Part shown: piece after piece, positions 21,412 to 49,617 of the stretch
Numbering within the stretch: position 1 is the first letter of the stretch
Layout: every line of letters starts with the position of its first letter
From: an uncultured Lachnospiraceae bacterium
Lineage (GTDB): Bacteria > Bacillota > Clostridia > Lachnospirales > Lachnospiraceae
DNA length: 50,149 nucleotides
Reading direction: 5' to 3'
Assembly (NCBI GenBank): GCA_947170415.1
Contig: CAMVTN010000003.1
Location: 1 to 50,149 of the forward strand
The notes under the pieces: model-generated
The model's database searches: none
Told to the model about the DNA's origin: nothing
Seen by the model: only the letters and a program-made list of their open reading frames with translations
Position numbers and translations under genes: made by a program

Positions 21412-21436
21412 GTTTTGTCTCCAAGTCACGTGCCGA

Positions 21437-21526
21437 TTGTATATGTTTTCTTGTCACGGCTCGGACAGACACTAAGCTCACGCACTAAGTGCTGCCGGCT
21501 GATTGTTCCAAGTAAAACATATACAA
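21437..21526. repeat. Copy D of a structured intergenic element (lacks the central hairpin domain)
   Basis: Arms TTGTATATGTTTTCTTG (21437-21453) / CAAGTAAAACATATACAA (21509-21526); core CTCGGACAGACACTAAGCTCACGCAC + TAAGTGCTGCCGGCTGATTG shared with copy C. Confidence 0.8.
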
Positions 21527-21557
21527 CCTGCACTCACGCTTACACAAATAAACATTC

Positions 21558-21710: not shown

Positions 21711-21966
21711 GGCGAGGGCAGCTTGTATAGTTATTTCTTGTAGCAATTAGCCGTATGCACTTAGTGAACACGATGTCCGAATAGGAAATTTTCGCAAGCT
21801 GTTTGAGATGCGAAGCATCGAGTTTTGCGAAAATTTCCGCTCTTATGAGGACACCGCGTGAGCTTAGTGCACTACGAGCGCGGAAAGAAATCACTATACA
21901 AGTTGTACTCGCCTGCCACTGTCTGTCCAAGCGCGAAGAAAAATAACTATACAAACTGCCCTCGCC
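21711..21966. repeat. Copy A of the structured intergenic element (opposite orientation to D)
   Basis: Outer arms GGCGAGGGCAGCTTGTATAGTTATTT / rc GGCGAGGGCAGTTTGTATAGTTATTT; inner stem GGAAATTTTCGCAA (21784-21797) / TTGCGAAAATTTCC (21825-21838); apical hairpin GATGC-GAA-GCATC. Confidence 0.85.
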
Positions 21967-22783: not shown

Positions 22784-22968
22784 TTTGTTTCCCTTTCGGT
22801 TGTTTTTTGTATTTCCCCACTTTGCACAACCTTTTTTATTATAAAGGTCACAAAATATACGTCAAGGATATTATTTCATAAACAGAACACACAAAATCTA
22901 GTCAATGTGACTTCGAATCATTATATGATGACACGAATTGCTCCGCTGCTGATCCAGTTCACGCAATT

Positions 22969-24966
22969 CTACGTAAATGAATTCAGATTTTCCCTGAGTT
23001 CCATCATCTTATCTCTGAGTTCCGCTGCCGTTTCGAAATCCAACTCTGCTGCAGCAGCTTTCATCTTCTTTTCAACCTTCTTTATGAGTTCCTCAAGTTC
23101 CTTCTTATCCATAGATTCGGGATCTTTCTTAAACTCATACTCACTCTTTGCTACAGACTTTGTAAGTGAGATAAGATCACGAACTGCTTTCTTTATAGTC
23201 TGAGGCGTGATTCCATGATCTTCATTATACTTCTGCTGGATCTCACGTCGTCTGGCAGTCTCATCGAGACATATCCTCATTGAATCCGTTATAGAATCCG
23301 CGTACATGATAACATGACCTTCTGCATTTCTCGCTGCACGTCCTACAGTCTGGATAAGCGATGTCGCAGATCGTAAAAATCCCTCTTTATCCGCGTCAAG
23401 TATCGCAACTAACGAAATCTCCGGTATGTCCAGTCCCTCACGAAGAAGATTGATGCCGACTAACACATCAAAAACATCCAGACGCATATCCCGGATTATC
23501 TCAGCTCTTTCCAGCGTATCAATATCAGAATGAAGGTAACGCACCCGTATACCTATCTCTCTTAAATAGTCCGTAAGCTGTTCCGCCATCTTTTTTGTAA
23601 GAGTCGTAACCAGTATCTTATTTTTCTTTTCTATCTCAGCATTTATCTCCTGCACGAGATCATCGATCTGACCTGCAGTCGGGCGAACATCGATAAGCGG
23701 ATCCAAAAGACCTGTCGGCCTTATCAGCTGTTCTGCACGCAGCAGCTCATGCTCTTTCTCATAATCGGCAGGGGTTGCAGACACAAACAATATCTGATTA
23801 ATGTGCTGTTCAAATTCGTCAAAGGAAAGCGGCCTGTTATCCTTTGCGCTCGGTAAACGAAATCCATATTCTACCAATGTATTTTTTCTGGAGAGGTTTC
23901 CGTTAAACATACCTCCGATCTGCGGGATGGAGATATGGGACTCATCAACAATTATCAGAAAATCATCCGGGAAGAAATCCATAAGCGTTGTCGGCGGAGT
24001 GCCTTCCGGCATGCCTTACATGGGACCTGTGTAGTTTTCGATACCGCTGCAGAAACCTGTCTCACGCAGCATCTCCATGTCAAAACGAGTCCTCTCGGAA
24101 ATTCTCTGAGCTTCTATCAGCTTATCCTCCGAACGGAAAAACTTTACTCTTTCTTCCAGTTCTTTTTCGATACGGGCGATTCCTGCCTCCATCTTTTCCT
24201 TAGGCATAACGTAATGGGATGCCGGGAATATGGAAACCTGCCTAAGTTCTTCCTTAGGTTCTCCGGTAAGAACATCGATCGTGACGATCCTGTCTATCTC
24301 ATCACCAAAGAACTCTACGCGGATAGCTGTTTCATCTTCTTCTGCAGGAAAGATCTCCAAAACATCACCATGTACACGGAAAGTTCCACGATGAAAATCC
24401 ATATCATTTCTCGTGTACTGTATTCCTATGAGCTCATGTATGACATCATCCCTGTCCTTCTCCTGTCCAGGACGCAGAGACACGATCATCGCAAGATAAT
24501 CATCCGGTGATCCCAGTCCATATATACAAGAAACAGAGGCCACGACTATAACATCCCGTCTTTCAGAAAGCGCAGCTGTGGCTGCGAGCCTTAGCTTATC
24601 AATGTTGTCATTTATAGATGAATCTTTTTCAATATATGTATCCGTCGAAGGGACATAGGCTTCCGGCTGATAGTAATCGTAGTAGGATACAAAATACTCT
24701 ACCGCATTCTCCGGAAAAAACTCCTTAAACTCGCTATATAGCTGACCAGCCAGAGTTTTATTATGGGAAATGACAAGCGTTGGTTTATTGAGCGCCGCTA
24801 TCACATTTGCCATTGTAAAAGTCTTTCCGGAACCGGTAACACCCACCAGAGTTTCACACTGGTTTCCATCCTGAAATCCCTTCACCAGTTTCTCGATAGC
24901 CTGCGGCTGGTCTCCTGTGGGTTTGTATTCGCTATGTAATTTAAATACGTTATTTTCTTTTCCCAT
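22969..24966 (-). pseudogene. uvrB: Excinuclease ABC subunit B interrupted by an in-frame TAA at 24016-24018 (two ORFs: 24016-24966 and 22969-24012)
   Basis: N-terminal ORF has [15 protein letters not shown] and [22 protein letters not shown]-terminal ORF has [24 protein letters not shown] and the UVR motif; both in the same frame, separated by TAA GGC ATG. Confidence 0.9.
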
Positions 24967-37084: not shown

Positions 37085-37247
37085 GGCTTCTCCTATCTGT
37101 ACACAGGTACAATAGTTGTTTTCACCTTGTGTATCGGCTTGTCTTAGGGGTGATCGTACATTGTGTTTTGTATAAAATTTAGTGCGTGATTAATGGTACG
37201 TTCAACTTTGAATAGTATATCCCGTCACGGCTCGGTAGTACGTGCCA

Positions 37248-37430
37248 GCGGTATAAATATCTCCTTCCGCGCTCGGACAGACACTAAGCTCACGCACTGT
37301 TCTCATAAACTCGGAAAAATCTGCGAAACTCGATGCTTACGCATCTCAAACAGTTCGCAGATTTTTCCTATTCGCCCAGTGTGTTCACTAAGTGCTGCCG
37401 GCTGATTGCTCCAGGAGATATTTATACCGC
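37248..37430. repeat. Copy C of the structured intergenic element
   Basis: Arms GCGGTATAAATATCTCCT (37248-37265) / AGGAGATATTTATACCGC (37413-37430) perfect; inner stem GGAAAAATCTGCGAA (37313-37327) / TTCGCAGATTTTTCC (37354-37368) perfect; apical GATGC/GCATC. Confidence 0.88.
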
Positions 37431-37499
37431 CGACACTTAGGCATCTGCACTCCACAGTAATACACTAAATTCCACGCTTCTAACGTGATTGAAACGTAA

Positions 37500-37692
37500 G
37501 TGCAGGGCATATATTTCTCTCTTGTAGAAATCAGCCGGCATCACTTAGTGAATGAGTTGACCGATTAGGTAATTTATGCGAACTGTTTGAGTCGCAACGC
37601 GACGAGTTTCGCAGAAATTACCGTTCTTATGAGGGCAACACATGAGCTTAGTGATGTCCGAGCGCGGAAAGAGAGAAATATATGTCATGCAC
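37500..37692. repeat. Copy B of the structured intergenic element (opposite orientation to C)
   Basis: Arms GTGCAGGGCATATATTTCTCTCTT (37500-37523) / AAGAGAGAAATATATGTCATGCAC (37669-37692); inner stem GGTAATTTATGCGAA / TTTCGCAGAAATTACC; apical GTCGC-AAC-GCGAC. Confidence 0.88.
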
Positions 37693-44462: not shown

Positions 44463-44538
44463 CCCCCTTCCCGTTCAACGCCTATCTACATGTATACTTT
44501 AATTATATCATTTCATATCATAAATCCAACATAATACT
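44463..44538 (-). repeat. Promoter/leader sequence, copy 1 (upstream of MNT-HEPN)
   Basis: Minus strand TTGGAT-N16-TATAAT and GGGAAGGGGG SD; near-identical block at 49544-49617. Confidence 0.7.
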
Positions 44539-49543: not shown

Positions 49544-49617
49544 CCCCCTTCCCACCAAGTGCTTATCTGTAGGAATACTTAAATTATATCATCTCATATC
49601 ACAAATCCAACAAATAC
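49544..49617 (-). repeat. Promoter/leader sequence, copy 2
   Basis: About 80% identical by eye to 44463-44538, including TTGGAT...TATAAT and GGGAAGGGGG. Confidence 0.7.

Follow-up and report, generated by a model that had tools for sequence, protein, structure and literature searches.

The window, which is the whole stretch of 50,149 nucleotides analysed here, belongs to a rumen bacterium closely related to Lachnospiraceae bacterium NK4A144 and contains copies of a hairpin repeat of about 200 nt. Copy C occupies positions 37239-37439 on the minus strand and consists of a core (37267-37411) between two arms (37239-37265 and 37413-37439); it scores 156.3 bits with R1, a covariance model built from 20 aligned core copies of the same genome, A, B and C included. 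Across an unstranded spacer (37440-37499) it faces copy B on the plus strand (37500-37692; 153.2 bits), with its core at 37525-37667 and its arms at 37500-37523 and 37669-37692. Copy A, also of full length and on the plus strand (21711-21913; core 21741-21883; 154 bits), is the head-to-head partner of a shortened copy D on the minus strand (21430-21533; R1 match at 21455-21508, 44.9 bits). In copy D the arms and the outer core are retained and the inner rod is gone, and the orthologous site in NK4A144 is occupied by a full-length copy. A second, partial right end adjoins copy A on the plus strand (about 21917-21966), its arm being the better match to the left arm of A (96% over 26 nt). The original prediction had recognised A, B and C, which needed only small changes of their boundaries and whose conserved segments do follow the block order given; it had missed the shortened copy D as well as the pairing of D with A and of C with B.

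The strand of B and A is predicted to fold into one long rod, with energies mostly from -80 to -113 kcal/mol for full copies and of -67.5 kcal/mol for a copy cut without its left arm. From the outside inward, the arm is followed by AATCAGCC opposite CCGAGC, GGCAGCACTTAG opposite CTTAGTGCTGTCC and GTTGTCC opposite GGACAAT, and further inward by GAATAG opposite TTATGAG, the inner stem, CTGTYTGA opposite GAGT and the apical stem. Within the GGCAGCACTTAG/CTTAGTGCTGTCC stem, the pairing of GCAC with GTGC is replaced by TTCT/AGAA in some copies. Asymmetric internal loops of fixed sequence are formed by AAUCAGCC/CCGAGC, by GAAUAG/UUAUGAG and, at the apex, by CUGUYUGA/GAGU. In copy B, the conserved 5' side of the apical internal loop, CTGTTTGAG, lies at 37583-37591 (+), its last G pairing into the apical stem, and the 3' side, CGAGT, at 37603-37607 (+). 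The loops are invariant beside stems that change and still pair.

An RNAalifold consensus of 20 copies from the window's own genome comprises 44 pairs, and at 26 of these both sides have changed with pairing preserved. For 73 copies (68 distinct), 96.6% of the pair cells are paired and double changes occur at 31 of the 44 pairs, which bears out the covarying stems of the original prediction far above two controls: 310 doubly changed cells were observed in the 68 distinct copies versus 69.9 ± 8.1 in shuffles, and when the partner was slid by 1-3 columns the pairing fell to 27-41% and the double-change cells to 15-38. Selection on the fold is therefore well supported by fixed loops that stand beside compensated stems. 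On the strand of B there are 114 G.U cells versus 14 A.C cells, and per pair position only 19 versus 10; because this asymmetry per position is modest and the fold was predicted with G.U allowed, the choice of strand is suggestive only.

When copy B was used as a BLAST query against its own genome, 28 matches were obtained. Further copies, anticipated by the proposal of a family, were also found with R1, which matched 27 times in the window's genome (G000), 25 times in NK4A144 (G013) and 28 times in Lachnospiraceae bacterium MC2017 (G030); the 20 sequences used for building the model match by construction, and the remaining copies are independent of it. The distribution is patchy among near relatives: R1 matched three times in genome G039, a fourth close relative, and detected no copy in most of the genus. 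Among 117 relatives, the element was found in 19 genomes from 4 of 65 genera, a count that weak or diverged copies may escape.

An exact search of a species-level genome collection with the apex pattern (CUGUYUGAG, a stem, CGAGU) matched at least 117 stretches. At 55 of 120 motif sites, z was below -3 and the number of pairs enclosing the apex exceeded that in all 25 shuffles. The record titles place these 55 sites in Bacillota, Bacteroidota, Actinomycetota, Desulfobacterota, Pseudomonadota and Aerophobetes; long hairpins that share the apex thus occur in no fewer than six phyla. Some other motif sites are plain chance matches, for example inside coding sequence, and the GC-rich Betaproteobacterial copies mostly fail the shuffle test, though they recur as dimers. 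Several distant loci match R1 over its full length (L090, E = 6e-7), with E-values that are inflated because the loci had been picked by the apex motif. The hairpins of all these phyla likely share common descent. The Betaproteobacterial copies are traversed by long open frames that reappear from locus to locus and might receive an annotation as hypothetical proteins (L088, L093, L101, L107, L110, L130, L133, L135, L166, L168, L178, L184 and L188); the example that was read passes through the element itself.

Copies usually occur as head-to-head dimers, the two partners being separated by a short spacer. In three Lachnospiraceae genomes all 15 close pairs, which represent about seven independent sites, have the orientation (-)(+) with their 5' ends facing, as do D-A and C-B in the window. 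The same arrangement holds for 14 of the 15 inverted close pairs in loci that carry the motif and lie beyond the close Lachnospiraceae group. Such loci contain six more close pairs in direct orientation, and two tandem arrays account for five of these. Tandem direct arrays are seen at L128 (7006-7565; four copies with a period of 178 nt) and at L146 (873-1285; three copies, about 206 nt). Single copies can be decayed dimers, because at site C6 relatives keep different halves: G000 and NK4A144 retain one copy and an apparent relic of the partner's arm, and G030 the partner plus a truncated copy.

The outer arm, of roughly fixed length (18-26 bp) and weak consensus, is more variable than the core yet self-complementary. 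In the window's group, the two arms of a copy are 86% complementary over 26 nt, compared with 64% for arms of different copies, and own-arm complementarity lies above the cross mean in 71 of 71 copies. The arms had been described as self-complementary and unrelated between copies; the first statement holds, the second is too simple, the left arms being 68% alike. Similarly, among 19 copies of genome G012 the cores are 89% alike and the left arms 68%, in agreement with the earlier view that a MITE with fixed terminal repeats would look different. The two arms of a G012 copy match at 92% over 18 nt, where complementarity stops sharply, and in G031 the arms of the copies examined are similar. Three G012 copies (L303, L304 and L321) are flanked on either side by one half of a GGGGGACGGTCC repeat, a repeat that forms inverted pairs. 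At L344 in the same genome, a GGGGGACGGTCC repeat without the element carries one arm-like sequence and either has not yet received the element or has lost it by deletion; the ACAT in the comparison of L344 with L321 fits a duplication or a deletion repeat alike. In Acidaminococcaceae, several copies lie between terminator-like arms with A- and T-tracts. It is possible that in some lineages, namely Acidaminococcaceae and the three G012 copies, arms derive from palindromic targets, as had been suggested; either insertion at a hairpin tip or copying of one flank would explain these settings.

Comparison of orthologous sites revealed loss and exchange. At site C44 a copy is present in G000 and G030, and NK4A144 keeps one arm alone, a state that represents a deletion because G030 is the more distant relative. 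At C17 the copy is present in G000 and NK4A144 and G030 keeps one arm, for which deletion is the simpler reading. G000:C130, G013:C22:12518 and G030:C15:48877 are one orthologous site with similar flanks and very different yet paired stems, and stem types were thus exchanged or evolve fast. No clean pre-insertion site was found, both element-free orthologous sites (C44 and C17) keeping an arm; none was recovered for the G012 copies, intergenic sequence being too diverged in the relatives compared, and no target-site duplication was recognised at the junctions read. Mobility of the hairpin repeat is well supported, as it is multi-copy, patchy, and lost and exchanged between near relatives.

Rfam 15 gave no match in the window at the gathering threshold, and a permissive search that admitted E-values of up to 5 yielded a single match, attributable to chance. 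This is in line with the earlier statement that the element is not a known Rfam family. In 36 loci with related hairpins Rfam matched only four tRNAs and one SAM riboswitch and never an element, and motif and topic searches of the open-access literature yielded no account of the element. The proposed undescribed family of structured RNA or ssDNA is upheld as regards its copies, its covariation and its absence from Rfam; that it is a patchy, dimeric, dispersed repeat had been overlooked. The hairpin repeat shares covarying stems and invariant loops with catalogued structured RNAs (Rfam 15), but it is multi-copy and mobile and lacks a family match. As for an intrinsic terminator, no T-run directly follows B or C.

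REPs measure 20-40 bp and carry a conserved terminal tetranucleotide, the GTAG or CGTC tag, and the CGTC repeats are without a known dedicated transposase (PMC3733652), a trait that the hairpin repeat shares. Like REPs, REPINs and BIMEs, it forms many intergenic hairpins, often close together in opposite orientation, with single copies beside dimers. It differs by its length of about 200 nt, by several invariant internal loops and by having no recognised conserved tag; right ends read CACGTC in some copies and CACGTA in others. The hairpin repeat thus resembles REPINs in occurring intergenically both as inverted dimers and as single copies, but not in size, in a GTAG or CGTC end or in association with a RAYT (Y1). 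We therefore do not call it a REPIN and class it as a variant among the bacterial interspersed hairpin repeats. Hairpin-forming bacterial MITEs include ERIC, YPAL, NEMIS, RUP and Bcr1 (PMC3733652). These too have 70-300 bp, are intergenic and non-coding and fold strongly, but MITEs possess fixed terminal repeats, whereas in the hairpin repeat the arms are most variable and the inner loops fixed. In a kink-turn, tandem sheared G.A pairs adjoin an asymmetric three-nucleotide bulge. In the sequence of the apical loop GA stands opposite GA, so that tandem sheared G.A pairs would be possible, but the bulge would have about five nucleotides instead of three. Integron attC sites, which have GTTRRRY/RYYYAAC core sites and an integrase, are long imperfect hairpins with conserved unpaired features and variable stems, as is the hairpin repeat. 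However, attC sites lie in direct order and the hairpin repeat head-to-head, and visual inspection of the right end of B revealed no GTTRRRY.

The copies are intergenic and have no fixed orientation relative to neighbouring genes, which makes a cis-regulatory RNA unlikely. A dedicated adjacent gene was rejected, as the largest recurrent ORF cluster (13 loci) contains a frame through the element itself; a second recurrent cluster near elements comprises 8 loci. Among the neighbouring gene families, no recurrent neighbour was identified as a possible mobiliser. A RAYT or other Y1 transposase was discarded in this role, showing no association with copies across relatives, and no ORF with a HUH motif was tied to the elements. 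In G012, about 65 inverted pairs of GGGGGACGGTCC repeats have varied interiors (e.g., C4:3233-4206 and L335-L354), and interspersed with them is a Y1 transposase gene (C4:3703-4029), an arrangement that would be expected for a RAYT and its REPINs. Plasmids and phages gave no DNA match to the element. Cargo between far-apart (-)(+) elements was also dismissed, since pairs further apart have mixed orientations. Single genes lie between (-)(+) elements about 1 kb apart at L158 (5250-5864, presumably NYN-like) and L381 (9253-10164, presumably DUF2971-like), possibly by chance.

In our best reading, the hairpin repeat has a REPIN-like organisation but is far larger and has RNA-like conserved internal loops. 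With a probability of roughly 60%, the copies are non-autonomous mobile repeats on which a trans-acting enzyme acts by recognising the fold, with arms re-made or captured at insertion. Such an enzyme would recognise mainly the loops, on single-stranded DNA or RNA, and would spread the element; stems would then be free to drift while pairing holds. The outer arm would be re-made or captured at insertion, and re-making would leave arms that differ more between copies than the cores do, yet are each self-complementary. A new class of structured mobile elements spanning phyla, in which an enzyme would recognise the internal loops of a folded single strand (kink-turn-like at the apex) and locus-specific, self-complementary arms of fixed length would be rebuilt from target DNA whenever the element inserts, is conceivable but rather doubtful.

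A structured RNA useful to the host, as regulator or scaffold, could have reached many copies by duplication, its fold being selected for the host; strong covariation with invariant loops is what functional RNAs show, and the strand of B is rich in G.U. Such an origin appears unlikely given the patchiness even among near relatives (28 copies versus 3 or 0), the copies lost or shortened at orthologous sites, and the inconsistent orientation and gene context. Alternatively, the paired changes might be mutational and not selected, if template switching within a palindrome copies one of its arms onto the other and so leaves even old repeats able to pair. Template switching creates and maintains hairpins with multi-base compensated changes (PMC8794818), and the outer arms diverge in blocks yet match. 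However, homogenisation of arms should erase the asymmetric, non-complementary loops and the G.U pairs, yet both are still found in 68 distinct copies, and the apex is shared by several phyla. We regard this explanation as distinctly unlikely for the repeat as a whole, and template switching may act on the outer arms and help to keep them matched.

Head-to-head dimers with decayed single copies, and the three G012 copies inside RAYT-type REPINs, would suit an oversized REPIN moved by a RAYT-type Y1 transposase, an option that is very unlikely: Y1 transposases are missing from the window's genome (76% complete, 27 copies) and from G031 (82% complete, 16 copies), 17 transposase matches occur in G032, where no copy was detected, and none of the six transposase loci read has the element motif alongside. 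A classical MITE, with terminal inverted repeats that serve as recognition sites for an insertion-sequence transposase, is highly improbable. The roughly fixed arm length, the absence of coding capacity and the similar arms in G031 agree with it, but arms less alike than cores (68% versus 89%) are the reverse of a MITE, and the junctions read bear no recognised target-site duplication.

A large, strongly covarying hairpin repeat that occurs in at least six phyla and is absent from Rfam constitutes a gap in the catalogue, and covariation taken as proof of a host RNA must be separated from covariation that a mobile hairpin maintains through its life cycle. For non-autonomous mobile repeats, a route to the mobilising activity is offered because genomes with 15-28 copies neighbour close relatives with none. 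Other repeats are present in the window as well. A repeat of about 50 nt at 22919-22971 has many matches in G013, G030 and G039 at 77-93% identity, and intergenic direct repeats of 69 nt, which are 80% identical and start with CCCCCTTCCC, lie at 44463-44531 and 49544-49612.
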